DNA of 25,641 nt from a virus. Both the position numbers and the translations under genes were made by a program. Shown here in pieces: positions 1 through 12,148 of the stretch. Each line of letters begins with the position of its first letter. Positions within the stretch are counted from its first letter, which is position 1. The stretch is from IMG/VR virus record IMGVR_UViG_3300028610_000236, positions 1 to 25,641 of that record. One strand, given 5' to 3'. The notes below the pieces were generated by a model. That model saw only the letters and a list, made by a program, of their open reading frames with translations, was not told the DNA's origin and did not search any database.

Positions 1-177
1 GTCAAGGTAGGCCGAGCCTACCTCACCAATAGCAGCACTTACCTTGGCACTAGGTATCCACCCTATCCTCTGCTTCTTACAGTCGATGCCCCCAAATATC
101 AGGGGGCCAGCGACCATTGCCAGGATACTAGCGATAGCTAGTGCAATCAACAGCTCGATAAGTGAGAAGCCCCTCAT
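1..177 (-). CDS. Type IV prepilin-like protein (partial, runs off left edge)
   Basis: Read leftward from ATG 177-175, this gives 59 residues with no stop before the window edge. The start is MRGFSLIELLIALAIASIL: a class III signal peptide with a 3-residue leader ending in Gly, Phe at +1 and Glu at +5 of the mature protein. A hydrophobic stretch to about residue 29 (ending AGPLIFGG) follows, as in the first helix of type IV pilins and pseudopilins. In that family prepilin peptidase cleaves after Gly and methylates Phe, and Glu5 guides subunit assembly in the inner membrane. The start overlaps the stop of the upstream gene (ATGA, 177-174) and no Shine-Dalgarno is visible, so translation is probably coupled. 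The C-terminal pilin domain is not in view, so major pilin, minor pilin or pseudopilin cannot be told apart. A phage-borne pilin mimic is an inference. Confidence 0.72.
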   Translation of the reverse strand, partial: MRGFSLIELLIALAIASILAMVAGPLIFGGIDCKKQRIGWIPSAKVSAAIGEVGSAYLD

Positions 178-566
178 GAGGCAGCGAACTTGTCAAGCAG
201 GGCCATTGCCTTGGCCTCGTCACCCAACACTAGCTCGTCCTCTACCCGGCGACCCGCTGCACGTATCTTCTCTTGGGCCTTGTCACGACGGACATTGGCT
301 GCCTTGTTACGCCGCTCAATAGCAGCGTTCTCTTTGCCGACAACCTGATGCTCGATACTGTCGCTAATGCCATGTCTGTGGCCCCATTGGTTCTTCGATT
401 TGCCAATGGTGTTCCAGTTGACGGTGGCTGTGCCAGCACGCAGACGTTTGAGTACGTCGTCCCACTCAAGCTCGTCCTCATGGTCATACCCCGGTACTGC
501 ACTACACTTCAGTGCAACGATGGAACTCAGTCGTTCCCTTGCATACCTCAGTTTCACTTGGTTCAT
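174..566 (-). CDS. Hypothetical 130-aa basic protein, leftward module
   Basis: The start is set at ATG 566-564 (MNQVKLRYARERL) because a strong AAGGAGGA Shine-Dalgarno lies just upstream (578-571). The frame is open further out to 635, but that extension has no ribosome site. The product is 130 residues. An N-terminal helix is rich in Arg and Lys, residues about 25-45 are acidic (HEDELEWDD), and the C-terminal half is charged and probably helical (AAIERRNKAANVRRDKAQEKI). No membrane segment or catalytic motif is visible. It is the first gene of a leftward pair and overlaps the prepilin-like gene by ATGA. A candidate promoter lies at 888-916. I do not recognise the family; a small nucleic-acid-binding or host-interaction protein is possible, but nothing in the sequence shows it. 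Confidence 0.75.
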   Translation of the reverse strand: MNQVKLRYARERLSSIVALKCSAVPGYDHEDELEWDDVLKRLRAGTATVNWNTIGKSKNQWGHRHGISDSIEHQVVGKENAAIERRNKAANVRRDKAQEKIRAAGRRVEDELVLGDEAKAMALLDKFAAS

Positions 567-600
567 GGTGTCCTCCTTAATAGGACAGTGGTAGAATAGG

Positions 601-719
601 TGGACGCCTGCCTTTACACTCAACCTCTGGTCCACAGGGTTAGGTACTTCAAGTACCTTACCAGTGACAGCGTAGCTCTGACTCTAATGTCATCGCTACT
701 TGGTGAGAGCAAGCGTCCA
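601..719 (-). ncRNA. Candidate folded leader element (four-way junction)
   Basis: The ends pair as a 7-bp stem (601-607 TGGACGC with 713-719 GCGTCCA). Inside are three further stems. 622-625 and 627-629 pair with 635-637 and 638-641, with one bulged base. 642-649 pairs with 651-658. 658-663 plus 672-676 pair with 695-699 plus 701-706 across an internal loop. The whole sits upstream of the Shine-Dalgarno (571-578) of the gene starting at 566, as a regulatory leader would. Each stem alone could arise by chance; the nested arrangement is what makes it notable. No known riboswitch class is recognised. Confidence 0.3.
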
Positions 720-887
720 ATACATAGGTGTTGGTCACTCAAGACACACGTTCTATGCTTTAATAGTGGCTCCAGCTTTACACTCGACGGTCGTTCCCCA
801 TATAGCACGGCTACTTAGGTAGGGCATGGACGTCAACTACCGAGCCTGTGTTTCACCTATGGGTTCAGTCCTATGAGACTAGATGCC

Positions 888-916
888 ACTATCAAAGAAC
901 AGTGACGTTATGTCAA
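888..916 (-). promoter_or_regulatory. Candidate sigma70-type promoter, leftward
   Basis: On the minus strand a perfect -35 TTGACA (916-911) is followed by a 17-base spacer and GATAGT (893-888), which matches four of six positions of TATAAT. Transcription would start near 881 and run into the genes at 566 and 177. Spacing is optimal and the location in a non-coding gap fits. Confidence 0.45.
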
Positions 917-1025
917 ATCCAACGGGCAAAAAAAGTGTGGGAGTAGGCACAAACAAACACAATCGAGCGTGGTATACCGTCGCAAGATTATCTGAGTGAT
1001 GTGCCACTCCGCTTAATGCTCAAGA

Positions 1026-1077
1026 TAACACAGCTATGCTGTGTTACCCTGAACACTCCAGCCTACGGCTGGAATGT
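1026..1077 (-). terminator. Tandem hairpins after leftward gene, possible transcript end
   Basis: Two perfect or near-perfect hairpins follow one another in the leftward transcript. 1053-1077 is 11 bp with one mismatch and a 3-base loop, and the stop codon of the gene at 1063 lies in that loop. 1026-1046 is a perfect 9-bp stem TAACACAGC/GCTGTGTTA with a 3-base loop, followed by TCTTG. The U-run is weak, so this may be a 3' end stabiliser or processing site rather than an intrinsic terminator. Confidence 0.35.
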
Positions 1078-1413
1078 GCCGACAGCGCCAATCAAGCCCT
1101 TGTCATTGAGCGAATCGAAGCGATCCCTCAGTGCATAGGCCAGCTTGGTCTCGCCACGTTGGTTCTTTCGTGCATAAAGCACGACCTCACTACCTTTGGT
1201 AGTGGCGTGGTTGGCTGCCTTCTCGGTCATTTTAGCCATGTAGCCTTCGGCTACCTCGACCTTCGGCGCTTCGCCACCATCAACTACCGGGGCAGCAATA
1301 GCTGCCGGGGCAATAGCGTTGGCGGTTAATGCCGTGACCAGAGCATCAATGCTCTGGGTCTGCGACTCAACTGCGTTGAGTACGTCCTTCATGCTCGTTC
1401 TCTTGTCACCCAT
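1063..1413 (-). CDS. Hypothetical 116-aa protein, leftward module
   Basis: The start is placed at ATG 1413-1411 (MGDKRTSMKDVL). A GAAGGAG ribosome site lies six bases upstream; an in-frame TTG at 1419 abuts that site and is unlikely. The 116-residue product has a probable N-terminal helix. An Ala/Pro-rich low-complexity linker at about residues 32-50 (ANAIAPAAIAAPVVDGGEAP) follows, then a charged, probably folded C-terminal half (KGSEVVLYARKNQRGETKLAYALRDRF). No signal peptide or catalytic motif is seen and I do not recognise the family. The gene carries at least six short perfect inverted repeats, and its stop codon sits in the loop of another. It is separated from the upstream gene by 133 bases holding a large hairpin. 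Confidence 0.68.
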   Translation of the reverse strand: MGDKRTSMKDVLNAVESQTQSIDALVTALTANAIAPAAIAAPVVDGGEAPKVEVAEGYMAKMTEKAANHATTKGSEVVLYARKNQRGETKLAYALRDRFDSLNDKGLIGAVGTFQP

Positions 1414-1470
1414 TTTCAACTCCTTCGGACCACTTGGGCCTCGTCTGTTGGGTTTTCAAAACTCTCCCCT

Positions 1471-1518
1471 TCTCTCTCTGTCAGGGGAGTCGTAAGACTC
1501 CTCCCCTGACGAGAGAGA
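1471..1518. repeat. Long imperfect hairpin between leftward genes
   Basis: Three stacked stems: 1471-1478 with 1511-1518 (8 bp, alternating TC/GA), 1480-1486 with 1504-1510 (7 bp) and 1487-1491 with 1496-1500 (5 bp). The bulges are T1479 and CTC 1501-1503, and the loop is GTAA. It lies in the 133-base gap between the genes at 1547-1807 and 1063-1413. On the leftward RNA it would form a roughly 20-bp stem upstream of the next ribosome site. That resembles an RNase III processing site more than a terminator, because no U-run follows directly. Confidence 0.6.
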
Positions 1519-1546
1519 TAGGGTCTCGGTGCCTCGCACGCGGTAA

Positions 1547-1807
1547 TCACTGTGCGCGAGGCGGAGCATCGAGTGTAATGACCTCCAGTGTAACTGGAGT
1601 GTCATCGTAGAATCCCTCATCTTCGATGAGGGGCAGGCCATAGAACTCCAGTCGTTCCCATTGGGAACTACACTGGAGCATGTTAGTGGACATTTCCCTC
1701 TCAACCTGTTCATCTGTGATGAACAGTTGAGGGCCTCGATCTGCCATGAACTCGGCAGCAGCACTACGTAGAGCTTGCTCTACGGTCATGACGTTACGTG
1801 TGGTCAT
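1547..1807 (-). CDS. Hypothetical 86-aa acidic protein, leftward module
   Basis: The frame runs from ATG 1807-1805, which overlaps the TGA of the upstream gene (1806-1804) as ATGA. A GGAAGGA site lies upstream. The 86-residue product starts MTTRNVMTVEQALRSAAAEFM and then has an acidic middle (TDEQVEREMS) and a C-terminal half rich in Asp and Glu (PLIEDEGFYDDTPVTLEVITLDAP). No membrane segment or catalytic motif is seen and the family is not recognised. The gene is unusually dense in perfect inverted repeats: five or six stems of 7-13 bp, at 1578-1605, 1614-1632, 1646-1678, 1706-1726 and 1767-1784. Its mRNA would be strongly folded, yet the frame stays open and its start is well supported. Confidence 0.66.
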   Translation of the reverse strand: MTTRNVMTVEQALRSAAAEFMADRGPQLFITDEQVEREMSTNMLQCSSQWERLEFYGLPLIEDEGFYDDTPVTLEVITLDAPPRAQ

Positions 1808-2007
1808 TTCATGTCCTTCCTTGCCTTCGGCAAGTTGTGGGGAGTGGCGAACTCAATGTTCACAGAACATTGTAGCTCGGAGTACCTAAGTACCAAGCAA
1901 TCGCTTGGTACTTTGAATCGTTGGCAGTAAGCCAGCCGATCTACATTATCCGGTAGGATAATGGACCGGCCAGCAACATAGCCTATGTAGCGTCGTGTGA
2001 TTGTCAC
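1804..2007 (-). CDS. Hypothetical 67-aa protein with GTG start, leftward module
   Basis: A GTG start at 2007-2005 is chosen because GGAG (2016-2013) sits five bases upstream and the start falls one base after the TAA of the preceding gene (2011-2009). The frame is open further upstream, but that part overlaps the preceding gene and has no ribosome site. The product is 67 residues (MTITRRYIGYVAGRSIILPDNVDRL...), slightly basic, with two Cys (CQRFKVPSDC about residues 28-36) and a third further on (LQCS). It ends in ATGA overlap with the next gene. The family is not recognised. Inverted repeats at 1820-1834, 1854-1872, 1888-1913, 1934-1953 and 1976-1988 fall within it. Confidence 0.55.
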   Translation of the reverse strand: MTITRRYIGYVAGRSIILPDNVDRLAYCQRFKVPSDCLVLRYSELQCSVNIEFATPHNLPKARKDMK

Positions 2008-2008
2008 G

Positions 2009-2233
2009 TTAGCTCCAGTTGGCCTCAGCTTCGCTGAGTGTGGCGATAATGTCGTATTCATCAAGCAAAGCTTGATGGTGCGACTCAATCAGGTCGTCGT
2101 AGTCAACTACGAAGTAGTTGTACGAATCGCTATAGCCTGTGTAACCGTCGTCGAAGTCAAGTGCCTTCGGCACTGGCTCCGGTTTGTATCCAGCTAGCAA
2201 AGCTAGCTGTTGCAGCGAATTGGTCATGGACAT
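2009..2233 (-). CDS. Hypothetical 74-aa acidic protein, first gene of leftward unit
   Basis: The start is placed at ATG 2233-2231 (MSMTNSLQQLALLAGYKPEPVPK), with AAGGAG six bases upstream. A second in-frame ATG follows two codons later. The 74-residue product is markedly acidic, with a Tyr/Asp-rich central segment (DFDDGYTGYSDSYNYFVVDYDDL) and no membrane segment. Small acidic early phage proteins often mimic DNA or bind host proteins, but nothing here identifies a target. It is followed after one base by the GTG of the next gene. Two very long hairpins (2249-2297 and 2346-2389) lie in its leader. Inverted repeats at 2024-2038, 2059-2077, 2104-2120, 2160-2174 and 2191-2209 lie inside it. Confidence 0.66.
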   Translation of the reverse strand: MSMTNSLQQLALLAGYKPEPVPKALDFDDGYTGYSDSYNYFVVDYDDLIESHHQALLDEYDIIATLSEAEANWS

Positions 2234-2248
2234 TTCGAACTCCTTGTT

Positions 2249-2297
2249 GGGGCGGATTCCCCCCTTCACTACGTGAAGAGGGGGGAATCCTAGCCCC
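2249..2297 (-). repeat. 21-bp hairpin in leader of leftward mRNA
   Basis: GGGGC (2249-2253) pairs with 2293-2297, GGATTCCCCCC (2254-2264) with 2280-2290 and TTCAC (2265-2269) with 2273-2277. The loop is TAC (GTA on the leftward RNA) and there are two-base bulges TA 2291-2292 and GA 2278-2279. It ends immediately before the AAGGAG that serves the gene starting at 2233, so it could protect, process or gate that mRNA. Confidence 0.7.
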
Positions 2298-2345
2298 ACT
2301 TTTGCCTCGCGTGGTAGATACCGGGCGCATGACGTAGCATATATG

Positions 2346-2389
2346 GAATCCACACCATAGTCAACCGTAGGTTGACATGGTGTGGATTT
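2346..2389. repeat. 19-bp hairpin with GTA loop
   Basis: An outer stem of about 12 bp (2347-2358 with 2377-2388) and an inner 7-bp stem GTCAACC/GGTTGAC (2360-2366, 2370-2376) flank the loop GTA, with one bulged A at 2359. On the plus strand it is followed by TTTT (2387-2390), so it could stop rightward read-through. On the minus strand it would lie in the leader of the leftward transcript. Confidence 0.65.
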
Positions 2390-2414
2390 TGAGCAGAGTG
2401 GAAACTATCCGAAC

Positions 2415-2440
2415 TGTATAACAATCAACTAGTTGATTGT
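2415..2440 (-). promoter_or_regulatory. 20-base palindrome beside a weak extended -10 promoter, leftward
   Basis: 2421-2440 is a perfect palindrome ACAATCAACT/AGTTGATTGT, the size of an operator for a dimeric repressor. Its leftward edge adjoins TGTTATACA (minus strand), an extended -10-like box with TATACA at 2420-2415, which would start a transcript near 2408 for the gene at 2233. No good -35 is seen. The palindrome is certain; the promoter and operator roles are inference. Confidence 0.3.
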
Positions 2441-2638
2441 CGTGTAACGTGTGCAATATTATCGCCTGCGCGTTGCAATATCCGTGCCACTTGACATAAT
2501 TCTGCTGCATATGGGATTTAATGACCACATTTGGTCGATTTGACATAAGGGGGAGGGAGGGGGATCGAAAGCCATCGCCTCTGGCGAAAGGGAGGTCTTA
2601 AATTTCTCATAGAAATGTTGAACTTTCTCCTCTAACTA

Positions 2639-2681
2639 TTGTCTAATACATAAAAGAAAGTATTACCATTCGTAGAATGGT
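2639..2681 (+). promoter_or_regulatory. Weak candidate rightward promoter with overlapping inverted repeat
   Basis: TTGTCT (2639-2644), a 16-base spacer and TATTAC (2661-2666) resemble a sigma70 promoter upstream of the gene at 2765. A perfect inverted repeat ACCATTC-GTA-GAATGGT (2665-2681) covers the expected start point and could be an operator or the first hairpin of the transcript. It matches the hairpins of the neighbouring array, so its role is unclear. Confidence 0.28.
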
Positions 2682-2764
2682 TACTATTCTAGATATGTCT
2701 CAGTACACTTGGGGCTATCTCTAGGTTCGCGCCCGACTTCGTCGGCGCTCCCATAGAGGAGAAC

Positions 2765-3094
2765 ATGTTTGATAAGATCTGGTCAATCTTGCTTCAGGAG
2801 GCCCGTTGGCCCTTTAAGCTACTGTTTGTAGCGGCGCTAGCGCTGCTATTCTTCAGTGTGACCGGATGTAGCGCCACGCCAGAGATGGCGGACGACTGCC
2901 CCGCGCATTTCGCGGAAGAGAAAGACATTATCAAGTGCAAGAAGCGTGTCTTCATGAGAGAGGACCGCGCTTTTCAGCTACAGCAGATCGAGGCTCGAAA
3001 AGAGCTGTGCGCAGCCCAGAAAAAGATCTGGGTGACGGTAGGATACAATTCAGGTTGCCTGGCCAGGGAGGATGCCGTAAGGCTGTTCTACTAA
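2765..3094 (+). CDS. Small Cys-rich lipoprotein
   Basis: The 109-residue protein starts at ATG 2765 after AGAGGAG, the first gene of the rightward run. Residues 18-34 are hydrophobic (KLLFVAALALLFFSVTG) and end in a lipobox-like VTGC with Cys35. This suggests signal peptidase II cleavage and a lipid-anchored mature part of about 75 residues. The mature part has four more Cys (44, 57, 82, 98) and a charged helical middle (EDRAFQLQQIEARKEL). It overlaps the next gene by TAATG, so the two are probably made together and act in the cell envelope. An outer-membrane spanin or a superinfection-exclusion lipoprotein are possible roles, but no diagnostic motif separates them and no spanin partner is visible. 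Confidence 0.7.
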   Translation: MFDKIWSILLQEARWPFKLLFVAALALLFFSVTGCSATPEMADDCPAHFAEEKDIIKCKKRVFMREDRAFQLQQIEARKELCAAQKKIWVTVGYNSGCLAREDAVRLFY

Positions 3095-3537
3095 TGGCCT
3101 GGGCAGAGATGATGCGGGTCCTAATGGCATGGACGCTGTTACTTACAGGCTACGAAGACCCAGGAGGCTATCCAGAGATATCCTTCGCTACGCCCGCCGA
3201 GCTGAGCCTAATGATATGCCCAATGGCACCTAACGGGTGCGGCATACGGGGCGTATACCACGACGGCAAGATATGGCTGTCAAAAGAATACGACCTGAAG
3301 ACAGACGAGTACGCTAGGTCCATCCTAGTGCATGAGTTCACACACTGGCTTCAGGACATGAACAACGACTACGAATACGAGGGTTATGAAGGCTGCGAGA
3401 AGGCCAACCAGCGTGAAGTAGAAGCTTACGGCGTGCAGAACGCCTACTTGCGTCAAGCAGAGAAATCTCAGAACATGGTGAGGAATCAAGTCCCCTCCTG
3501 CGCAAGATGGTACGCACCGAAGCTAGACAGACGATAA
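3094..3537 (+). CDS. Small secreted HEXXH zinc metallopeptidase-like protein
   Basis: The start is placed at ATG 3094, which shares its A with the TAA of the lipoprotein gene; upstream extension in this frame would lie inside that gene. Internal ATGs at 3109 and 3112 are alternatives. Of 147 residues, the first 18 or so are hydrophobic (MRVLMAWTLLLTG) and look like a signal peptide or anchor. VHEFTHWLQ (HEFTH at residues 80-84) is a zincin active-site helix with two zinc-binding His and a catalytic Glu. Glu108 or Glu110 in the following REVEAYGVQNAYL helix is a candidate third ligand. Four Cys (41, 49, 101, 136) may form disulfides outside the cytoplasm. It resembles small bacterial HEXXH proteins of the DUF6647 type. 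The substrate is unknown; envelope degradation at lysis or entry is inferred. Confidence 0.75.
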   Translation: MAWAEMMRVLMAWTLLLTGYEDPGGYPEISFATPAELSLMICPMAPNGCGIRGVYHDGKIWLSKEYDLKTDEYARSILVHEFTHWLQDMNNDYEYEGYEGCEKANQREVEAYGVQNAYLRQAEKSQNMVRNQVPSCARWYAPKLDRR

Positions 3538-3744
3538 TTTATACCAGTCGCTCTGGTGAGAGGCGGCGACCGGCCAAAAGTTCTTCCGGATCTTTGAAGC
3601 TACAGCTTAAGTCGGCCCCAAGACCAAGGGGTTTTATATGCACAGAGACATTGGCTAAATGGTGGAGATCCTCTAATGGAGTTCGGCTGGTGCGTTGTTT
3701 CCAGGGTCGATTCCCTGGGGCTGGTGCCTTACAATGGAGATTGC
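3538..3744 (+). other. 207-base gap before terminase with small hairpins
   Basis: There is no gene. It contains ACCAG/CTGGT (3543-3557) and a weak CCCC/GGGG hairpin followed by TTTT (3616-3635). A perfect 6-bp hairpin CCAGGG/CCCTGG (3701-3718) is flanked by the 9-base direct repeats GGCTGGTGC (3685-3693, 3719-3727). The 13 bases CAGGGTCGATTCC (3702-3714) recur at 3847-3859 inside the terminase gene. The hairpin looks like a tRNA T-arm, but no acceptor or anticodon arm can be fitted. Confidence 0.5.
3616..3635 (+). terminator. Weak candidate intrinsic terminator
   Basis: CCCC (3616-3619) pairs with GGGG (3628-3631) across an 8-base loop, followed by TTTT. The stem is only 4 bp, so any termination between the metallopeptidase gene and the packaging genes would be partial. 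Confidence 0.22.
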
Positions 3745-4347
3745 ATGAACTTGGACCATCTTGTGAATCAATTACCAACCAACCCCGTAGGGGTTGCCGA
3801 GCCTGACGAAGTTGGGCCGGAGATCTTTGATCAGCTCAAGGACTCTCAGGGTCGATTCCGAACCCAGTCCTTATTCTGGGAGCACAGACACGAATCGTAT
3901 CCGGCCCACTTCACCACTAAGAAGCATCAGATTTCGCGCGACGGTAAGACATACATCAGTCTCTACGAGAAGTACATGGAGATCAGCGATCCCACGGAGT
4001 ATCAAGTAGCCATTAGGCTGCTCGGTTCATGGGACCACTGGCAAGCTTTGCTTGGCTCCAAGTGGTTCCAAGAGCTAGTAACCGAATGGCGTAATGAACT
4101 CCGTGTGAAGATGGAGTCAGAGCGTTATTTTGAAATGATTGAAGAGGTAGACAATGCCACAGCATCCGGGAAAGACGCTAGGAAAATCCAAGCGACCAAG
4201 TGGCTCGCGGAGCGGTACACGCCCGCAGAGCAAAAGCGCAGGGGCAGGCCGACGAAAGAAGAAAAAAAAGCGCACCTCAAAGAAGTAGAGCGTGACGCAC
4301 AGGATCTCGCGGCTGACGCCGCCAGCATAGGTATGAAGGTAGCATGA
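3745..4347 (+). CDS. terS: Terminase small subunit
   Basis: The start is placed at ATG 3745 (MNLDHLVNQLPTNP) because GGAG sits five bases upstream. The frame is open to 3676, but that part has no ribosome site. The 200-residue protein contains the segment YEKYMEISDPTEYQVAIRLLGSWDHWQALLGSKWFQELVTEWRNEL (given here split: DPTEYQVAIRLLGSWDHW, then SKWFQELVTEWRNEL). This matches the pattern of small terminase proteins in many podoviruses and myoviruses as I know them. A Lys/Arg-rich tail (QKRRGRPTKEEKKAH) follows. The small subunit binds the packaging site and recruits the large subunit. The gene ends in ATGA overlap with a beta-propeller-like gene, which separates it from the large subunit. Confidence 0.75.
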   Translation: MNLDHLVNQLPTNPVGVAEPDEVGPEIFDQLKDSQGRFRTQSLFWEHRHESYPAHFTTKKHQISRDGKTYISLYEKYMEISDPTEYQVAIRLLGSWDHWQALLGSKWFQELVTEWRNELRVKMESERYFEMIEEVDNATASGKDARKIQATKWLAERYTPAEQKRRGRPTKEEKKAHLKEVERDAQDLAADAASIGMKVA

Positions 4348-5456
4348 CAGACTCAGATGGAGCACACATCTTCCCACCTCGCGCCGATGATCAAAGGATC
4401 ATCGACGCGATAGCAGCACAGGGTGGACCCTTTGGTCTAGGCATTGACGGAGACTTCCGCAAGGCCCTAGGCAATTTCCTGGGCCTATCCGATACAGAGA
4501 TACTCGCCCACTCAGTCGACGATATGTGGAAACACTACCTCGACGACCAGGGGCTTGTCAATGCAGCAGAGCCATTCAGTTTTGATCTGGCCGCATCCGG
4601 TGATCCGGATATCACCAGCTACAGTCTCACGACCGCTGCTGGCGCTTTCACGATTTCTGGTAACAACCACAACACTCCATACTTTAATGTAGCTGGAACC
4701 CGAGCGTACTTTAATAGGACCTCGTCTTGGGAGACCTGGCAGTATAGCCTGTCAACGCCGGGTGATCTATCGACACTGTCGTTCGAACTCACCCATGACT
4801 GGAGCGCACCTACCCAATTACAACGGGCTATTTCCCTGCCTCCAGCCAACGACAAATTCTATCGCATACGTAGGTCCGGTGGTTCAGGTGACATATTTGT
4901 GTCTGCTGATCCGTTCGCTAATGATGAAGTTGGCGACGTTTCTGGTGGTAATCCATATACCTTGACAGGTGTATCGGGGTTCCTAGGCGGTATTGCCAGT
5001 CCTGTTACACCCACCGCTTTCGTCGTAGCACCCAATAATCTCGACATGTATGCAATGTCGGCTGACGTGGGCGACCGTGCAATTTATCACCACCAGATGA
5101 GTGTACTCGGAGATGCCGATACTTCGACAGACCAAGGCCAAGCCTTAGATGTAAGCACCGAGTTTGACACCAATCTATTTTGCATAATCTATAGTCCTGA
5201 CGGAAGCAAACTGTTTGTAGTAGGTACGCACAGCGCCGCAGTGATCGTCGCGCAGTATGATTTAAGCACTGCCTATGATGTCAATACTGGTGTATACAGC
5301 GGTAAACAAATTACGGTAACGCCTGCAAGCACAGTCCTACTCGGACTGTTCGTCTGGGCTAATCCGGATAGCACCTTCCGGCTGGTCCTAACATACCCGC
5401 TTGGTGGAGCTAGTAATGGCTCGGCGTGGCGGTATGATCAGTACGATACACCCTAA
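4344..5456 (+). CDS. Beta-propeller-like repeat protein, probable tail or receptor-binding component
   Basis: The 370-residue protein overlaps the small terminase by ATGA and the large terminase by TAATG. Residues about 85-365 show degenerate blade-like repeats of a kind common in phage tail proteins: 'YSLSTPGDLSTLSF' near 132-145, 'PNNLDMYAMSADVGDRAIYHHQMS' near 231-254 and 'SPDGSKLFVVGTHSAAVIVAQYDLSTAYDVNTG' near 288-320 (each split between display and binding strands). The pattern is 'marker of position, YDLST, Asp' repeated, as expected for a WD40-like or NHL-like propeller. The N-terminal 60 residues (GLSDTEILAHSVDDMWKHYL) look like a helical attachment region. The function is inferred: binding a surface ligand or decorating the virion. 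The position inside the terminase pair is unusual. No signal peptide is present. Confidence 0.55.
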   Translation: MTDSDGAHIFPPRADDQRIIDAIAAQGGPFGLGIDGDFRKALGNFLGLSDTEILAHSVDDMWKHYLDDQGLVNAAEPFSFDLAASGDPDITSYSLTTAAGAFTISGNNHNTPYFNVAGTRAYFNRTSSWETWQYSLSTPGDLSTLSFELTHDWSAPTQLQRAISLPPANDKFYRIRRSGGSGDIFVSADPFANDEVGDVSGGNPYTLTGVSGFLGGIASPVTPTAFVVAPNNLDMYAMSADVGDRAIYHHQMSVLGDADTSTDQGQALDVSTEFDTNLFCIIYSPDGSKLFVVGTHSAAVIVAQYDLSTAYDVNTGVYSGKQITVTPASTVLLGLFVWANPDSTFRLVLTYPLGGASNGSAWRYDQYDTP

Positions 5457-6997
5457 TGCCGAAGCTTACAGCGGATGACATCCGGCAAGCGGCAGAGGAT
5501 GATCTCCTAACATTCATAGCCCTCGTAGCGCCCCATAGGGTGCTCGGGCACGCACACAAAGAGCTTATCAAATGGTGGCTCAGAGACGGTGCAGGAACAC
5601 ATCAGATGGTCCTGCTGCCACGGGATCATCAGAAGAGTACAATGGTTGCCTACCGAGTAGCGTGGGAGATCACGCGCAATCCCGCAGTAACGGTGTTGTA
5701 CATCAGCGCCACCTCCGGACTCGCAGAGAAGCAGCTCAAGTTTATCAAAGACATATTGGTCCATCCCAAGTACCGCAAGTACTGGCCCGATATGGTTCAC
5801 CCAGATGAGGGCAAGCGTGAGAAGTGGACTAACACAGAAATCATGGTTGACCATCCGGCCAGGAAGAAAGAAGGCGTCAGGGACGCCACTGTCTTTGCTG
5901 CGGGTCTTACTACGCAAATCACTGGCCTCCACTGCAACATCGCAGTACTTGACGATGTGGTCATCAAAGAGAATGCTTACACCGTAGATGGTAGAGACAA
6001 GGTCGAATCACAGTACTCTCTCCTGGCGTCAATTGAAACAACCGACGCAGAGGAGTGGATTGTGGGGACACGCTACCATCCCAGGGACCTTTACGGAACG
6101 CTCATCACAACTACTCAAGACGTTGTTGACGAGCACGGAGAAGTCCTGGATTCCGCACTTGTATATGAGGTGTGGCAGAAAGAAGTAGAGGACATGGGAG
6201 ATGGTACAGGTCAGTATCTATGGCCGCGCCAGCAAAGAGGCGACGGCAAGTGGTTCGGTTTCAACGCTAAGGTCCTTGCTCTCAAGCGTGCCAAGTATCT
6301 GGATCGCACACAATACTACGCCCAGTACTACAATAACCCTAACGATCCGGGTGAAGAAGCGATAGCCAGTGAATACTTCCAGCATTACGATAGAGAGTTT
6401 CTCAAAAAGCGTGATGGCGTCTGGTGCTTCAATGGCAAGCCTCTCGCAATCTTCGCCGCTGTTGACTTTGCGTTCAGCATCCGGAAGACGGCGGATTATA
6501 CCGTCGTGGTTATTGTTGGAGTCGACGTTGATGGCAACATCTATATACTTGACATTAAGCGTAAGCGCACGAACAAAACGACTGAATACTACAAAATGAT
6601 CTATGACCTCCATATGAAATGGGGGTTCAAGAAGATCCGGGCCGAGGTCACCGCAGGCCAGGCAGTAATTGCAGAGCGTATCAGAGATGACATCAGACGC
6701 GATGGATTAGTGCTGGCGGTAGACGACTTCAGACCCACCCGAACAATGGGTACAAAGGAGGAACGAATCCATGCTGCTCTTAGCCCTCGCTACGAGAACC
6801 ATACAATCTGGCACTACGCTGGCGGACTTTGCGAAGAGTTGGAGCAGGAACTTATCCAATACAATCCTGCATTTGATGATATCAAAGATGCCCTCCATTC
6901 CGTCATGGGAATTATCCGTACGCCTTATAATGCTTCGCGGCGGCGCAACAAGAATACCGTCGTCAGTCATCCTAGATTCGGAGGAGTCGCAGCCTAA
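5456..6997 (+). CDS. terL: Terminase large subunit (packaging ATPase-nuclease)
   Basis: The 513-residue protein drives DNA into the prohead and cuts the concatemer. The N-terminal ATPase has a Walker A variant LLPRDHQKST (residues 53-62, T7-like form), the motif YISATS (82-87) that follows it in terminases, and Walker B IAVLDD (162-167). A coupling segment GTRYHPRDLYG follows near 204-214. The C-terminal RNase H-like nuclease has its first acidic residue in AAVDFAF (Asp337) and a later acidic motif in DDIKDALHSV near 473-482. The length is normal for podovirus terminases. Its start shares one base with the preceding stop (TAATG) and no Shine-Dalgarno is visible, so it probably depends on translation of the beta-propeller gene. 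It overlaps the portal gene the same way. Confidence 0.95.
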   Translation: MPKLTADDIRQAAEDDLLTFIALVAPHRVLGHAHKELIKWWLRDGAGTHQMVLLPRDHQKSTMVAYRVAWEITRNPAVTVLYISATSGLAEKQLKFIKDILVHPKYRKYWPDMVHPDEGKREKWTNTEIMVDHPARKKEGVRDATVFAAGLTTQITGLHCNIAVLDDVVIKENAYTVDGRDKVESQYSLLASIETTDAEEWIVGTRYHPRDLYGTLITTTQDVVDEHGEVLDSALVYEVWQKEVEDMGDGTGQYLWPRQQRGDGKWFGFNAKVLALKRAKYLDRTQYYAQYYNNPNDPGEEAIASEYFQHYDREFLKKRDGVWCFNGKPLAIFAAVDFAFSIRKTADYTVVVIVGVDVDGNIYILDIKRKRTNKTTEYYKMIYDLHMKWGFKKIRAEVTAGQAVIAERIRDDIRRDGLVLAVDDFRPTRTMGTKEERIHAALSPRYENHTIWHYAGGLCEELEQELIQYNPAFDDIKDALHSVMGIIRTPYNASRRRNKNTVVSHPRFGGVAA

Positions 6998-8775
6998 TGC
7001 CTAGAGTAGCCAAAGCCGTACAAGAGATTAACACCCTCCTACGGAGCGATGATCTCTCAGACTTCGTAGTGAACAAGTACGTGACGTGGCGTGGAAGCCG
7101 CGTTCACTGGATCGAAGACATGAAGGAGCTGCGGAACTACATCTTCCAGACAGACACTTCGCAGACCTCGAACAAGACCCTACCGTGGAAGAACACCACG
7201 TCGGTCCCCAAGATCTGCCAGCTAAGGGACAACCTACACGCCAACTATATGGCTGCCCTGTTCCCGAATGACAACTGGTTCAAGTGGGAATCAGCTACAG
7301 ACGAAGCGGCTGACAATGAGTCAGCCCTCCTGATCGAAAGCTACATGAAGCAGAAGATCCGGGAGTCAGACTTCAAGAAGGTCATTAGTGAATCCCTATA
7401 CGACTACATCGACTACGGTAACGTATTCGGTGAGGTCACGTACGAGAACGACGTCCACCAGACGGGCGACGGTACGAATGTCGCGGTCTATGTAGGCCCG
7501 CGCGTACATCGCATCAGCCCCTATGACATCTTGTTTGATCTGTCCGCGTCGGACTTCAAGAACGCCGCGAAGATCACCCGCACGATTGTTTCACTAGGCA
7601 CGCTGAAGAAGGCCGCTGAGGTAGACCCCGCGTTTGCGTGGGTGCCCGCCGCCATAGCAAATACCGTGGAGCTGCGCACACACATGCGCGGCTACTCCGA
7701 CAGCGACATCGACAAATCAGAAGGTATGCAGATTGATGGCTTCCACCAGCTCAACTCGTACTACTCTTCGGACCTGGTTGAACTACTCGAGTACGAAGGC
7801 GATACGTTCGACATCATAACTGGTGAGGTCAAGTCGGGCCGTCGCATAATCGTGATGGATCGAAGGGTCGTCGTCTTCGACGAGCCGTACGATTCCTGGC
7901 TAGGTAAGTCGAATAAAGAACACGTGTGCTGGCGTGACCGCCCTGACAATCTCATGGGTATGGGACCGCTGGACAATCTCGTGGGGATGCAGTACCGTCT
8001 CGACCACTTGGAGAACCTCCGAGCGGACGTCATGGACCAGATCGCCCACCCGGTTGTGTACACACGCGGCTACGTTGAAGACTGGGACTGGGGTCCAGGC
8101 GAGAAGATCTACGGCGACGTAGACTCGGACGTTCAAGTCCTTCGCCCAGATGCCACGGCCCTGAACGCCGATTTCCAAATGGACCGCTTGATGCGGGACA
8201 TGGAGGAACTAGCGGGTGCGCCCCGCGAGGCGATGGGCATACGTACCCCTGGCGAGAAGACAGCGTTTGAAATCCAGGCGCTGGAGAACGCCGCAGGTCG
8301 TATCTTCCAGCAGAAGATCCAGAAGTTCGAAGAGCACTTCGTCGAGCCTCTGTTGAATCAGATGTTGGAGTCAGCCAGGCGCAACATCAACGCAGTCGAG
8401 GTCGTTAAGGTACTCGACCAAGATTTCGCGGTGACACAGTTCTTGCAGGTGACACCGGAAATAATCGGAGCGAAAGGAAAGCTCTACCCCATTGGGGCAC
8501 GACATTTCGCTAAGCAAGCACAGATTGTGCAGAACCTTATCGGCTTCATCAATAGCGCAGCCTACTCCGACCCCTCCGTGGTAACCCACGTCAGTGGTCT
8601 GCGGATCGCTCGCTTGATGGAAGAGAACCTAGGACTGGATCGTTTCGAGCTGGTCGTAGAGAATGTCCGAGTCGCAGAGCAGCAGAAGACCGCAGCCCTG
8701 GTAACTCAGGCCGACGAAGACGTAGCAGGCGAGATCCTCGACCGAGGTGCCGCCGACACAGAGGAGCCAGTCTAA
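6997..8775 (+). CDS. Portal protein (head-tail connector)
   Basis: The 592-residue protein begins in a TAATG overlap with the large terminase, with GGAGGAG upstream. It forms the dodecameric ring through which DNA enters and leaves the head. The start (VQEINTLLRSDDLSDFVVNKYVTWRG), the early motif SVPKICQLRDNLHANYMAALFPNDNWF, and the later segments DNLVGMQYRLDHLENLRADVMDQ and GAPREAMGIRTPGEKTAFEIQ are typical of podovirus head-tail connectors. Length and position after the large terminase agree. The last 60 residues are helical and acidic (TQADEDVAGEILDRGAADTEEPV). The next gene starts directly after its stop, with no gap. Confidence 0.93.
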   Translation: MPRVAKAVQEINTLLRSDDLSDFVVNKYVTWRGSRVHWIEDMKELRNYIFQTDTSQTSNKTLPWKNTTSVPKICQLRDNLHANYMAALFPNDNWFKWESATDEAADNESALLIESYMKQKIRESDFKKVISESLYDYIDYGNVFGEVTYENDVHQTGDGTNVAVYVGPRVHRISPYDILFDLSASDFKNAAKITRTIVSLGTLKKAAEVDPAFAWVPAAIANTVELRTHMRGYSDSDIDKSEGMQIDGFHQLNSYYSSDLVELLEYEGDTFDIITGEVKSGRRIIVMDRRVVVFDEPYDSWLGKSNKEHVCWRDRPDNLMGMGPLDNLVGMQYRLDHLENLRADVMDQIAHPVVYTRGYVEDWDWGPGEKIYGDVDSDVQVLRPDATALNADFQMDRLMRDMEELAGAPREAMGIRTPGEKTAFEIQALENAAGRIFQQKIQKFEEHFVEPLLNQMLESARRNINAVEVVKVLDQDFAVTQFLQVTPEIIGAKGKLYPIGARHFAKQAQIVQNLIGFINSAAYSDPSVVTHVSGLRIARLMEENLGLDRFELVVENVRVAEQQKTAALVTQADEDVAGEILDRGAADTEEPV

Positions 8776-9048
8776 ATGACTGAACGACAAACCAAGCTAG
8801 ACCAACGCTGGTTCAAGGAAGATAGAGCACTCCCTAAAGAAGATCAAGAGAAAGCGAAAGAACAATCCGAGGTAGCCATTCGAAATTCGACATTGATGTC
8901 GAGACGTTTGAAAGGAATACTCGAGGAAGAATATGAGAAATGTATTCAGATCGAAGATGACTTCCAAAGCCCAGGCTGGAAGAAGCGCATCATAGCCCTG
9001 AATGCACGACGCAAAACCCTACGAGAGATCGTAGGAATCTTACCATAG
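8776..9048 (+). CDS. Hypothetical 90-aa charged helical protein between portal and scaffold
   Basis: The frame starts at ATG 8776, directly after the portal stop, with GAGGAG (8761-8766) nine bases upstream. The 90 residues are very charged (MTERQTKLDQRWFKEDRALPKEDQEKAKEQ) and predicted by eye to be almost wholly helical. No membrane segment or catalytic residues are seen. Small genes at this place in podoviruses are often head-assembly accessories, but I do not recognise this one. Its last codons form a perfect 7-bp hairpin CCTACGA-GAGA-TCGTAGG (9018-9035), 11 bases before the scaffold ribosome site. Confidence 0.75.
   Translation: MTERQTKLDQRWFKEDRALPKEDQEKAKEQSEVAIRNSTLMSRRLKGILEEEYEKCIQIEDDFQSPGWKKRIIALNARRKTLREIVGILP
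9018..9035 (+). repeat. Hairpin at the end of the pre-scaffold gene
   Basis: CCTACGA (9018-9024) pairs with TCGTAGG (9029-9035) around a GAGA tetraloop, of the stable GNRA class. No U-run follows. A position just upstream of the strongly expressed scaffold and capsid genes would suit mRNA processing or 5'-end protection, which is inference. Confidence 0.45.
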
Positions 9049-9059
9049 GAGGTCCGACC

Positions 9060-9791
9060 ATGACCGATGTATTTGACACTGACCAAGGTGATCAATCTAC
9101 CAGTGCTCTTGAAGAGCTGGTAGGCGATGGCAAGAAGTTTGCTGACAATGAAGCCCTTGCAAAAGGGAAGCAGGAATCAGACAACTTCATCGAACAACTG
9201 AAGCAAGAGAAGCAGGAAGCGCTGGATGCGCTGAAGGATGCCCAGAAGGATGTGGGTGAAGGCAAGACTGTTGCTGAACTTCTAGAGGCTGTTCGAGCCG
9301 CGCAAAAAACAGACGACGACGTTAACCAACCGCTGTCTGATGAGGATTTTCAAGAGAAAGTACGGTCCATTGTCCAAGGAGATTCTGCTGATACTACCCG
9401 TACAGCGAATCGTGAGATAGGCAACTCGCTAGTACTACAGAAGGTTGACGGCAATGTTGAAGCCGCCAAGACTTATGTAGCAGAACGCGCAAAAGCGCTT
9501 GGCGTTACACCAGCCAAGTTGCGCGAGCTGAGCGAAGATAGCCCTGAACTCTTTGCCAAAGCGATGGAACTCGATACTAGTACTGCTCCCAAAGGCACGG
9601 CGCAGCTACCTAATGTTAACACCAACAACCTTCAACCGGTTGTCGCAGAAGAAGTGGACGGTCATAAGACCAAAGCGTTCTACGACCGCCAGAAGAAGGA
9701 GATGGGTGTCAGCAAGTATCTGGACGACCACGCATTGCAGAATGCAATGATGGCCGACGCCATTGCACTAGGGGAGCGTTTCAGCAACTAA
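9060..9791 (+). CDS. Capsid assembly scaffolding protein
   Basis: The 243-residue protein starts at ATG 9060 with AGGAGG seven bases upstream. It should form the internal scaffold on which the capsid protein assembles before packaging. The N-terminal motif FADNEALAKGKQESDNFIEQLKQEKQEALDAL is the common podovirus scaffold pattern (given in part: ALAKGKQESDNFIEQLKQE). It leads into a coiled coil to about residue 85. The rest is acidic and helical with few hydrophobic residues, and ends in a short basic-to-neutral helix (KKEMGVSKYLDDHALQNAMMADA) that may contact the capsid protein. Position directly before the major capsid gene supports the call. Confidence 0.85.
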   Translation: MTDVFDTDQGDQSTSALEELVGDGKKFADNEALAKGKQESDNFIEQLKQEKQEALDALKDAQKDVGEGKTVAELLEAVRAAQKTDDDVNQPLSDEDFQEKVRSIVQGDSADTTRTANREIGNSLVLQKVDGNVEAAKTYVAERAKALGVTPAKLRELSEDSPELFAKAMELDTSTAPKGTAQLPNVNTNNLQPVVAEEVDGHKTKAFYDRQKKEMGVSKYLDDHALQNAMMADAIALGERFSN

Positions 9792-9814
9792 TCTCAACAT
9801 GAGAGGAAGTAGAA

Positions 9815-10768
9815 ATGCACACTACCCAAAATAGTGCCATTCTCACTCGCTCAGAGATTTGGAGTACGAACCTCAAAGAAGTTCTCCAAGACGAACTACG
9901 CGCACAAGGCTGGGTAAACTGGCTGAGTGAGTTTCCGGACGGTGACCAGTTCACCATCCCGTCTATAGGTGAATCGAACGTACGAGATTATGTGGAAGAT
10001 ACTGACATTCAGTATGACGCCCTTGATCTTGGTGAGTTTCCCTTCACAATCACTGAGTACCTGAGTTCAGGTCACTACATCACCGAGAAAGCGCGACAAG
10101 ACCTTTTCTATGCCGCTCGCTTAGAAGCATCGTTCCTGCCCAAACAGGCACGTGCCCTAGCCGAGAAAATAGAGACGGACATCCTCGCTCTTTGTGCAGG
10201 TGGTGCGTCAGGCGGTCAAACGGCTGACGACCAAAACGTGATCAACAACGCAGACCATCGTTTCGTCGCCACTGGCGCAAGTGAAACGATTACTGTTAAC
10301 GATTTCGCTAAAGCGTTATATGGCTTGAAGAAAGCTAATGTACCGCAGACCGCGATGATCGCTATTGTTGATCCCTCGGTAGAGTTCGCTATCAATACGA
10401 TTACGAACATTACCAATATCAGCAACAACCCCCGCTGGGAAGGCATAGTAGAATCGGGCATCGGCTCCGGAATGACGTTCATCAAGAACATCTTCGGATT
10501 CGACGTATTCGTTTCCAACTATCTGCCTGATGCAAACGAAACCATTGATGGTCTTACGACCAGCGCTGGTAAAGCGAATGCGTTCTTCAGCGCGGCTGGT
10601 GGCGACATTATGCCCTTCATGGGTGCAATGCGGCAGATGCCGAAGGTTGATGGTGGTTATAACTACAACAAACAACGTGAAGAGTATGTTACGACTGCTC
10701 GTTACGGGCTGAAGGTCTTCCGACCTGAAAACCTGGTTTGTGTATTGTCGGATACCGACCAAGTCTAA
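9815..10768 (+). CDS. Major capsid protein
   Basis: The 317-residue protein starts at ATG 9815 after AGAGGAAG. It is expected to have the HK97 fold and build the icosahedral shell. Typical signs are the N-terminal arm (SEIWSTNLKEVLQDELRAQGWVNWL), the segment TEYLSSGHYITEKARQDLFYAARLE near residue 80, a central helix-rich spine with a Gly-rich patch (CAGGASGGQTADD), and the C-terminal VTTARYGLKVFRPENLVCVLSD. It follows the scaffold gene, and a terminator lies one gene downstream, as is common for the most abundant virion protein. It lacks an N-terminal prohead-protease region, in line with a separate scaffold gene. Confidence 0.93.
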   Translation: MHTTQNSAILTRSEIWSTNLKEVLQDELRAQGWVNWLSEFPDGDQFTIPSIGESNVRDYVEDTDIQYDALDLGEFPFTITEYLSSGHYITEKARQDLFYAARLEASFLPKQARALAEKIETDILALCAGGASGGQTADDQNVINNADHRFVATGASETITVNDFAKALYGLKKANVPQTAMIAIVDPSVEFAINTITNITNISNNPRWEGIVESGIGSGMTFIKNIFGFDVFVSNYLPDANETIDGLTTSAGKANAFFSAAGGDIMPFMGAMRQMPKVDGGYNYNKQREEYVTTARYGLKVFRPENLVCVLSDTDQV

Positions 10769-10781
10769 GGAGGATTGACTA

Positions 10782-11282
10782 ATGTCAGCAAGAGAAGAGT
10801 ATTGGTCTAACCAAGATGGGCTGGTTGTAGGCTTCGGCCAACGGGATGTTTCATGCAACTCGGCTAAGAAAATCGCAGTAGAAGGCGCGGTTGAAGAGCT
10901 GGTGCTGGACCTGACTGATGCAACTTTACTAGAGGACGTGCAAGCGACCGATGGTAATGCAGTTGTAAACGGTTCGGAAATCCCGGCTGGAAGTCTAATC
11001 GTGAGTGCAGTATTAGTCGTTACCGAGGCGTTTACGTCCGGTGGCGCAGCCGTACTCGATGTTGGTACATACGACGCGGATACTGGTGTTGCAGTTGACG
11101 ATGATTCCCTCATCGCCGCTGAAGCACTTGGTAACCTCGGTGCAAATGCCGTTGTAACAGGCGCAGGTGCAGATATTGGAGCGGTGGTAACACAGCGCGT
11201 CAAGATCGCAGCTACGTTTGATACAGCAGCTTACACCGCAGGTAAAGCTCGCGTGGTTATCAAATACCAGCCCCCGGTATAG
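10782..11282 (+). CDS. Probable head decoration or minor capsid protein
   Basis: The 166-residue protein starts at ATG 10782 with an ideal AAGGAGGA seven bases upstream, suggesting strong expression. It is rich in Val, Ala, Gly and Asp, nearly free of Lys and Cys, and patterned as beta strands: 'LVVGFGQRDV' early, then 'IPAGSLIVSAVLVVTEAFTSGG' and finally 'AYTAGKARVVIKYQPPV'. This alternation and the place between the capsid gene and a terminator fit a beta-sandwich decoration protein or head fibre made at high copy. I do not recognise a named family, so the role is inferred from context. Confidence 0.6.
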   Translation: MSAREEYWSNQDGLVVGFGQRDVSCNSAKKIAVEGAVEELVLDLTDATLLEDVQATDGNAVVNGSEIPAGSLIVSAVLVVTEAFTSGGAAVLDVGTYDADTGVAVDDDSLIAAEALGNLGANAVVTGAGADIGAVVTQRVKIAATFDTAAYTAGKARVVIKYQPPV

Positions 11283-11297
11283 ACCCCCGATTGGTGA

Positions 11298-11324
11298 GAG
11301 GGGCTTCGGCCCCTCGATCCTTTT
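11298..11324 (+). terminator. Intrinsic terminator after capsid genes
   Basis: A perfect 7-bp GC-rich stem GAGGGGC/GCCCCTC (11298-11304, 11309-11315) closes a TTCG loop in the C(UUCG)G form, followed by GATCCTTTT. It sits 15 bases after the decoration-protein stop and directly before the ribosome site of the tail tubular A gene. It probably separates abundant head transcripts from lower-level tail transcripts. The U-run is short, so some read-through is expected. Confidence 0.75.
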
Positions 11325-11337
11325 AATGGAGAAGTAA

Positions 11338-12138: not shown

Positions 12139-12148
12139 GAGACCAACT

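Follow-up and report, generated by a model that had tools for sequence, protein, structure and literature searches.

The shape and density of the repeats

Why should a run of small viral genes be packed with short perfect inverted repeats whose stems are unrelated in sequence? This question is raised by positions 1026-2691 of the window, the whole stretch of 25,641 nt analysed here, where 20 perfect inverted repeats with a 3-nt loop and 8 with a 4-nt loop are found, within genes as well as between them. Throughout, a hairpin is a perfect inverted repeat with a stem of at least 6 bp and a 3-nt loop, or a 3-4-nt loop in the wider count. The first-pass annotation had spoken of about 20 stems with a 3-base loop, and exactly 20 were counted in 1026-2690, compared with a mean of 0.43 and a maximum of 3 in 1000 dinucleotide shuffles. 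The wider count gives 28, compared with a mean of 0.82 and a maximum of 6 (1000 dinucleotide shuffles). Codon-preserving shuffles, which had been proposed as a check, do not reproduce the count either: the four genes of the array contain 14 loop-3 hairpins, against a mean of 1.0 and a maximum of 6 under codon swapping (2000 shuffles) and a mean of 0.5 and a maximum of 4 under synonymous resampling (2000). Chance or base composition as the origin of the array is refuted by both types of shuffle, nothing speaks in its favour for any of the eight arrays described below, and we give it practically no credence.

A dispersed copied repeat of the REP or MITE type was also considered and rejected, as its copies should share sequence. 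When 1001-2700 was searched against its own record, the only matches besides the query (E <= 0.001) were four palindromes that align with themselves in reverse complement, which agrees with the initial view that the stems are unrelated. The rest of the window (2691-25641, 22,951 bp) contains 15 loop-3 and 28 loop-3-4 hairpins, so the virion genes are indeed poorer in such repeats, as had been judged by eye. These rightward genes are nevertheless mildly above chance, nine of them (16,230 bp) having 21 loop-3-4 hairpins where codon swapping gives 8.25 on average (range 4-13, 20 shuffles).

Source genome, relatives and genes of the array

Judged by terminase identity and PHROGs matches, the window represents part of the genome of a Zobellviridae-like podovirus. 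The terminase of the window is 50-55% identical to those of ICBM1-3, MEP401 and ICP2, whose records belong to Zobellviridae, and the PHROGs matches of the structural genes support this relatedness. Among 80 terminase relatives, 9 loci exhibit at least 22 repeats per 1.5 kb; this number says nothing about absence in the other relatives, as many of them have no upstream region. The repeat peaks of G015 and ctOsX528 were AT-repeat artefacts and were removed from the pooled counts. The pooled analyses comprise eight distinct array phages, and the spacing survey also took in G013 and G015 (301 hairpins, 10 records). The window, G001 and G002 are identical across the array. No tRNA was found in the window or in L089, and a host search in genome contigs returned two MAG contigs at 48-54% identity and no host.

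The array runs through four leftward genes. Gene A (2009-2233, minus strand, 74 aa, with an assumed ATG start) has no Pfam match, and gene C (1547-1807, minus strand, 86 aa) has no PHROGs or Pfam match; between them lies gene B (1804-2007, minus strand, 67 aa, with an assumed GTG start). Gene D (1063-1413, minus strand, 116 aa), the last gene of the array, is present in all eight array phages, and its alignment against viral contigs recovered eight loci, namely seven of these phages and G002. It has no significant PHROGs, Pfam or PDB-sequence match and no match in named phages, and its structural model (mean pLDDT 69) gave no fold match at E <= 0.001. Gene D was not detected in G013, which has a short array. 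In a comparison of 15 genomes, with the same-clade fragment G008 tallied as non-array and ICP2 and O4 each taken without about 0.5 kb, a 179-aa protein encoded beside the DNA polymerase was confined to G013 and the four long genomes that carry an array. Its N-terminus is predicted to consist of beta strands and could be an OB fold, which is only a lead, given the poor model (pLDDT 64) and the insignificant fold matches.

Boundaries of the array

All eight phages exhibit one array box each, in the same place, from a G-run element to the stop codon of gene D. The box comprises 20-42 hairpins over about 1.5-2.2 kb, with a density of 12.6-20.4 hairpins/kb compared with 1-6/kb in the flanks. The kilobase beyond gene D contains 2-6 hairpins (seven phages; the contig of G010 ends there), and the 2 kb on the far side of the array contain 2-10. 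In the window, the G-run element lies at 2549-2563 on the plus strand. Two G-runs are present in G009 and at least three in each of the remaining array phages. About 40 bp from the element is a conserved palindrome, ATTTCT-CAT-AGAAAT (2602-2616), and a similar sequence was recognised by eye at this place in all seven of the other phages.

In ICBM1 and ICBM2, a C-rich counterpart of this G-run is found on the early-sense strand within the annotated terminal repeats. Direct terminal repeats of cobaviruses (Zobellviridae) resemble this end of the array in having C/G-rich runs where the early and structural arms diverge, and PMC6775973 describes terminal repeats that are supported by PacBio data and share a conserved 5' region rich in G+C; cobavirus ICBM2, in contrast, is without a hairpin array (0-3 repeats per kb). 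As the G-run resembles the C-rich runs in these repeats, we place the array at the early-gene end of the genome, where it probably adjoins the terminus. What had been called a leftward accessory module is therefore better described as the first leftward operon, beside this probable terminus.

Architecture of the hairpin unit

Across the eight arrays (18,170 bases), loop-3 stems of exactly 6, 7 and 8 bp occur 58, 76 and 38 times, against 2.9, 0.8 and 0.2 expected, and the mode at 7 bp indicates a preferred size. The loop-closing pair is C-G in 162 of 192 hairpins, and the loop ends are commonly G.A, T.C, T.T or A.A. Beyond the closing pair, the stem letters exhibit only weak biases (79 of the 192, for instance, have A at pair 3), and the flanks are near random. 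GNA loops, which are the most stable DNA triloops, are found on the mRNA-sense strand in 56 of these hairpins, on the other strand in 33 (p = 0.02) and on neither strand in 103. The median spacing of hairpin centres is 36-72 bases in the eight phages. Where loop-3 hairpins fall in the listed genes, the 84 loops are distributed 46/29/9 over the three phases (chi-square p = 5e-6), and the rarest phase is the one with the least synonymous freedom, a form of negotiation with the reading frame.

In the window, long palindromes occupy 2347-2388 (inner hairpin 2360-2376) and, upstream of gene A, 2248-2298 (inner hairpin 2264-2278). Gene A contains two 8-bp hairpins with the loop AAA, at 2191-2209 and 2059-2077, gene B an 11-bp hairpin with the loop AATC at 1888-1913, and gene C a 9-bp hairpin with the loop TGT at 1706-1726 and a 7-bp hairpin at 1583-1599. 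A long quasi-palindrome lies between genes C and D at 1472-1517, with an inner perfect stem at 1486-1501 and outer arms traced by eye. Gene D contains a 7-bp hairpin at 1188-1204; another 7-bp hairpin, with the loop TAC, spans its stop codon (1057-1073), and a 9-bp hairpin with the loop TAT lies just past it (1026-1046).

Evolution of the stems

Comparison with G003 indicates how these stems change. In the hairpins at 1188-1204 and 1583-1599 and in the inner stem at 2264-2278, one pair is altered on both sides, whereas G003 has an unrelated hairpin at the position of 2347-2388 and a different 10-bp stem at that of 1026-1046. Among 95 aligned pairs, 72 are unchanged, 16 are altered on one side and 7 on both, and six of these seven still pair (about 0.8 expected if the changes were independent). 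The reverse comparison, from G003 to the window, gave 75 unchanged pairs, 33 altered on one side, 8 on both (5 still pairing) and one gap. In 30 overlapping ordered comparisons of the six other phages, pairing is retained at 52 of the 81 positions altered on both sides, and 163 pairs are altered on one side. Single hairpin units appear to be dispensable, as many are broken between relatives (6 of the 14 alignable from the window to G003 and 8 of 17 in the reverse direction).

Stems are thus compensated, replaced, shifted or simply lost. This is the outcome of the search for compensatory changes that had been suggested as a check. The claim that the shape is kept and the sequence is not holds across eight distinct phages with co-located arrays and different stem letters, and this suggests that the DNA itself carries a structural signal not described so far.

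The main rival to selected DNA hairpins is a mutational process that builds palindromes: a replicating strand would snap back at 3-nt loops and copy 6-8 nt (template switching), repeatedly and nowhere but in this stretch, with purifying selection then filtering what the genes tolerate. The observations separate this process only in part from cruciforms and other roles at the DNA level. Near-perfect arms, with 255 perfect stems against 49 with one mismatch in the eight arrays, the minimal 3-nt loop, stems that have been replaced or shifted where they stand and the mildly raised number of inverted repeats among the rightward genes would all suit such a process. However, a box bounded by the G-run and the gene D stop, a preferred stem length of 7 and single-pair compensation are more natural under selection, so that we consider the mutational explanation rather unlikely.

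DNA or mRNA as the selected object

Folding of early mRNA had been listed among the possible roles. The early transcript would then be a string of stem-loops slowing ribosomes, blocking RNases or binding an RNA-binding protein. The array does coincide with one leftward gene run ending at gene D, and 3-nt loops closed by C-G are stable in RNA too. With regard to G-U pairs, the strict count gave 5 one-mismatch G-U stems against 4.4-4.6 expected, beside the 255 perfect ones, whereas MS2 and Qbeta together, used as a control, gave 10 against 2.2 expected, beside 21 perfect stems. With loops of 3-8, G-U stems in the arrays rise to 39 against 13.5 expected, and A-C stems are equally raised (38 against 13.7). 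The first non-Watson-Crick pair beyond the stems is G-U in 47 cases and A-C in 39 (p = 0.45). Pairing resumes after 9 G-U, 4 A-C and 20 other mismatches, a slight lean to G-U that would suit mRNA hairpins and is not significant; an early tally made without an expectation had counted 14 G-U and 13 A-C of 74.

The two strands of the arrays fold equally: of 148 windows, the mRNA-sense strand is the lower one in 75 (p = 0.6). In E. coli rRNA (32 of 36) and in MS2/Qbeta (39 of 64, p = 0.005), by contrast, the sense strand is favoured. Hence the arrays exhibit neither the sense-strand folding bias nor the G-U tolerance of an RNA stem-loop array, the G-U contrast being a weak test by itself since G-U stems in MS2/Qbeta are no more frequent than A-C stems (10 against 11). 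Within 1-3600, there is a single terminator-like site on the leftward strand, at 2681-2665, and a search of RNA families (Rfam) gave one unrelated sub-threshold match only. A role for the early mRNA is therefore not favoured, and we regard mRNA hairpins as improbable. Since G-U stems do not exceed expectation in the strict count and neither strand folds better than the other, selection seems to act on the DNA and not on the mRNA.

Comparison with known systems

The array resembles Frpo/ssi, the hairpin promoters formed by single-stranded DNA in the leading regions of conjugative plasmids, in its probable leading-end position and proposed single-stranded folding. Frpo/ssi are, however, few and sequence-specific elements, and they do not form an array through genes.

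The early promoters of phage N4 are also DNA hairpins with a 3-nt loop and a short stem in an early region. The stem of the N4 vRNAP promoter is 5-7 bp, and the array unit, with its mode of 7 bp and loop of 3, is of the same type. Each hairpin could accordingly be a promoter read by an injected virion RNA polymerase, and the similar unit, the location in an early region near the probable genome end and the small early genes are in line with this. Supercoil-driven extrusion is moreover established for N4: PMC4496689 reports that the hairpins extrude at physiological supercoiling and that the promoter, with a 7-bp stem and a 3-base loop, requires the shape while some stem letters are free. In contrast to N4, which has three such promoters sharing conserved letters from -17 to +1, the arrays comprise 20-42 units per phage, their units have no such shared letters, and only the loop and the closing pair are constrained. 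N4 itself exhibits 0-5 such repeats per kb in positions 1-12000 and no array. The two large virion proteins gave no RNA-polymerase match in a PDB sequence search, and PF00940 had no match in 18 records; the latter is no proof that a polymerase is absent, as the control genomes were equally without a match. Taken together, we find promoters of the N4 kind very hard to credit here.

Linear telomeres of Streptomyces consist of packed palindromes near a linear DNA end, with 3-nt loops and sheared G.A; the array, at its probable genome end, recalls them in its packed palindromes, among which 3-nt loops dominate and G.A is one of several loop ends. Their lineage-specific sequence and compensatory changes, as described in PMC7205883 and PMC4513846, are similar to what is observed in the array, and according to the former their 3-nt-loop hairpins withstand single-strand nucleases. 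In contrast, the palindromes of these telomeres number five to eight within the final ~160-180 nt, on a 3' overhang, and are accompanied by a terminal protein and Tap, whereas the hairpins of the array extend over a far longer region, overlap genes and have mixed loops. The GNA bias is on the strand opposite to the overhang expected from Streptomyces telomeres. Since a 3' overhang here would expose the strand with fewer GNA loops, the telomere form is not favoured.

Proposed role and significance

We give an even chance to the explanation that selection maintains here, at the early-gene end of the genome, an array of DNA hairpins, predicted from the sequence, that do not depend on particular letters. 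The array would cover the first 1.5-2 kb of that end of a Zobellviridae-like podovirus genome, with a unit comprising a perfect stem of 6-8 bp and a 3-nt loop, usually closed by C-G. The leading end may become negatively supercoiled or transiently single-stranded when the genome enters the cell, is transcribed early, replicates or has its ends processed, and the units could then fold into small stable DNA hairpins. These hairpins would keep the leading end from coating, degradation or reannealing, or would be landing sites that a protein of the phage or the host recognises by their shape, or both. Our best guess is the guarding role, as hairpins placed every few tens of bases with no conserved letters suggest a coat or barrier in preference to a single signal.

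The array may represent a genomic element of a new type, a 'structure-only' code in DNA made up of tens of hairpins with no fixed letters that overlie protein-coding genes at the leading end, although we rate this proposal somewhat below an even chance. As a structural coat, it would shield the DNA, much as a telomere does, from nucleases, SSB/RecA or host defence; as a platform, it would allow multi-site loading during genome entry or replication. Searches of the open-access PMC literature brought up no description of a comparable array. Most of its hairpins would escape a large inverted-repeat survey (PMC13155455), which considered perfect repeats with arms of 10 bp or more.

The eight phages provide about 190 natural DNA triloop hairpins (192, some of them shared by descent). 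If the proposed explanation is true, DNA and not RNA secondary structure would be strongly selected through about 2 kb of genes, as a layer of constraint that is invisible to annotation, and podoviruses would have a testable element for the survival of the genome end in entry, replication and concatemer processing.

Excess and form of the hairpins

The region between positions 1026 and 2690 of the window had been described as holding about 20 stems that pair perfectly over at least 6 bp around a 3-nt loop, and 20 were counted, whereas 1000 dinucleotide shuffles of this region gave a mean of 0.43 and a maximum of 3. The excess is also found when codons are preserved. The four leftward genes running through the array (genes A-D) hold 14 loop-3 hairpins, versus a mean of 1.0 (maximum 6) in 2000 codon-swapping shuffles and a mean of 0.5 (maximum 4) in 2000 synonymous resamplings. 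The virion genes do show only about one tenth of the array density, but they are mildly above the codon-swap expectation, with 21 repeats of loop 3-4 versus 8.25 in nine rightward genes (window 3676-22649, 16.2 kb).

Pooled over eight arrays (18,170 bases), exact stems of 5, 6, 7, 8, and 9 bp with a 3-nt loop were observed 45, 58, 76, 38, and 13 times, versus 13.8, 2.9, 0.8, 0.2, and 0.0 expected. The stem length thus has a preferred size near 7 bp rather than a decaying tail. Loops of 4 nt are a minority and loops of 2 nt are rare. A C-G pair closes 162 of the 192 non-overlapping loop-3 hairpins, with T-A in 22, G-C in 7, and A-T in 1, and the most frequent loop ends are G.A (56), T.T (45), T.C (33), and A.A (32). 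The other stem positions exhibit weak biases and the flanks are close to random.

Distribution and boundaries of the array

The rightward genes of this 25,641-base IMG/VR virus record form a T7-like packaging and virion module (terminase, portal, capsid, tail appendage, and internal virion protein). The terminase shares 55% identity with its counterpart in cobavirus ICBM2 and about 50% with the one in Vibrio phage ICP2; both phages belong to the Zobellviridae. A terminase search gave 80 loci, nine of which reach 22-37 repeats per 1.5 kb, with terminases 69-100% identical. The window and the related genomes G001 and G002 are identical over the array and were counted as one phage; the distinct array phages are therefore eight, the others being G003, G004, G005, G006, G007, G009, and G010. 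A ninth, short array of about 11 hairpins is found at 28.37-28.90 kb in G013. Counts stay at 4 repeats or fewer in every kilobase of the distant relatives ICBM2, ICP2, O4, and CVT22; the last kilobase of MEP401 has 7, scattered and mostly AT-rich.

Each array genome or contig exhibits one main hairpin cluster. Inside the array there are 12.6-20.4 hairpins per kb; the density is 2-6 in the kilobase past gene D, measured in the seven phages other than G010, whose contig stops at this point, and 2-10 per kb across the 2 kb on the opposite side. The array is bounded opposite gene D by a G-run element, GGGGGAGGGAGGGGG (window 2549-2563, + strand). Anchored on this element, the density is box-shaped: 15.5-20.5 per kb over the first 1250 bp, then 12.5 up to 1500 bp, 5-7 up to 2000 bp, and 1-5 farther out, past the end of the arrays.

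Three or more G-runs are present at this boundary in seven of the eight phages and two in G009. By eye, a small hairpin comes next, then in most phages a GAAAGC-like block, and then a ATTTCTCAYAGAAAT-like palindrome. In G004 and G006, four G-runs fit a G-quadruplex pattern. The element may be a packaging or terminus site. The annotated direct terminal repeats of the cobaviruses ICBM1 and ICBM2 contain C-rich runs on the early-sense strand, at a distance of about 20 bases from the start of the genome and oriented as in the array phages; PMC6775973 reports these repeats in PacBio reads, with a conserved G+C-rich 5' region. As the G-run resembles these runs, the array would cover the early-gene end of a linear genome. 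In G001, G005, and G009 the minimum of cumulative GC skew lies inside the array; in G006 it is about 3 kb off and in G013 5 kb off. Divergent transcription alone could produce such a minimum.

Genomic surroundings

Window 1-16620 matches the 49.5-kb relative G001 at 99.99%, and window 16431-25641 matches it at 99.8%. The ends of G001 overlap each other, which gives a closed length of about 49.4 kb. The leftward arm of G001 encodes a primase, a DnaB-like helicase, a DNA polymerase, an exonuclease, and CobT-like and porphyrin-biosynthesis-like proteins. The latter two lie at L090:302-3300 (+), L090 being a stretch of G001 numbered on the opposite strand, and a CobT-like gene is annotated in ICP2 too. 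A 179-aa protein adjoins the DNA polymerase (21253-21792, - strand; L090:7758-8297, + strand). It is present in four long array genomes and G013, and absent from the other ten genomes compared. Its N-terminus is possibly OB-like by prediction, and it is a possible candidate for an SSB-like partner.

Three further features were observed in the window. An open frame at 1-177 (- strand) starts with MRGFSLIELLIALAIAS, which resembles what we take to be a type IV pilin-like prepilin signal, here in a phage. Positions 600-1020, which separate gene D from the leftward gene that follows, comprise about 400 bp with no convincing gene; a similar gap seems present, by eye, in G006 and G009. No Rfam or tRNA match was obtained in the window. 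At 2618-2650 (+ strand), upstream of the rightward operon, TTGAAC and TCTAAY are separated by about 18 bases, by eye also in G006 and G013, and are a possible late promoter.

Conservation of shape and tests for RNA folding

The first-pass annotation proposed that shape, and not sequence, is maintained. This is supported: compensation and replacement are seen in relatives, beside many stems that are simply broken. The window and G003 are 75-80% identical in alignable parts, where 14 of the 28 window hairpins fall; 5 are identical, 3 kept by compensation, and 6 broken. At the level of pairs, 72 are unchanged, 16 have one-sided changes, and 6 of the 7 changed on both sides still pair. In the reverse comparison, 17 alignable hairpins comprise 6 identical, 3 compensated, and 8 broken. 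Across 30 ordered overlapping comparisons of six other phages, pairing persists in 52 of 81 pairs changed on both sides, where chance would preserve a third, and 163 pairs are broken by one-sided change. At several unalignable spots, G003 has an unrelated hairpin at, or a few bases from, the position of a window hairpin.

If mRNA folding were selected, G-U pairs would be expected in stems and the mRNA-sense strand would fold better than its complement. In a strict count, the arrays have 5 G-U-interrupted stems next to 255 perfect ones, which is at chance (4.4-4.6), whereas MS2 and Qbeta have 10 versus 2.2 expected, next to 21 perfect stems. This contrast alone is weak, since A-C mismatches are equally frequent in MS2/Qbeta (11). 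With loops of 3-8 nt, G-U stems do exceed expectation in the arrays (39 versus 13.5), but so do A-C stems (38 versus 13.7); past the stem end, pairing resumes after 9 G-U versus 4 A-C mismatches. Mean folding energy in 120-nt windows shows no sense-strand preference in the arrays (-38.5 sense, -38.8 antisense; the sense value is the lower one in 75 of 148 windows, p = 0.6), in contrast to E. coli rRNA (-35.1 and -28.4; 32 of 36) and MS2/Qbeta (-39.0 and -36.8; 39 of 64, p = 0.005). With narrower tiling of the arrays, the sense strand had the lower energy in 62 of 105 cases (p = 0.31 using RNA parameters, 0.16 using DNA parameters). The arrays thus fail the strand tests of RNA stem-loop arrays, and mRNA folding is unlikely to be the selected object.

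Discussion

No known kind of pattern tested matches the array, which we therefore rate as new as a pattern, its mechanism being a proposal. N4 promoters need conserved letters that the array hairpins lack, Streptomyces telomeres have about one tenth of the length and are located at the very end of the DNA, and RNA arrays differ in strand behaviour. Short 3-nt-loop hairpins of N4 extrude from supercoiled DNA in vivo (PMC4496689), and 3-nt sheared-loop hairpins of Streptomyces telomeres resist single-strand nucleases (PMC7205883, PMC4513846). The array would fold into hairpins in supercoiled or single-stranded DNA, and the folded array may guard or mark the leading end. GNA loops are found more often on the mRNA-sense strand than on the other (56 versus 33, p = 0.02). 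In early transcription this is the non-template strand, and for a fork leaving the terminus it is the lagging-strand template; it is not the 3' overhang strand at that end. The bias hints at transient opening rather than a telomere-like overhang.

Snap-back template switching could also build perfect 3-nt-loop palindromes, and accounts for the perfection of the arms and the turnover of hairpins. Nevertheless, it is not easily reconciled with the box-shaped bounds, the 7-bp preference, and the single compensated pairs, and selection on DNA shape is probably the better explanation.

Whichever process makes the hairpins, they have been mutually negotiated with the reading frames, as the loop codon phases are skewed: phases 0, 2, and 1 are found in 46, 29, and 9 of 84 hairpins in the listed coding parts. 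The rare phase 1 leaves synonymous freedom at only one pair in three.
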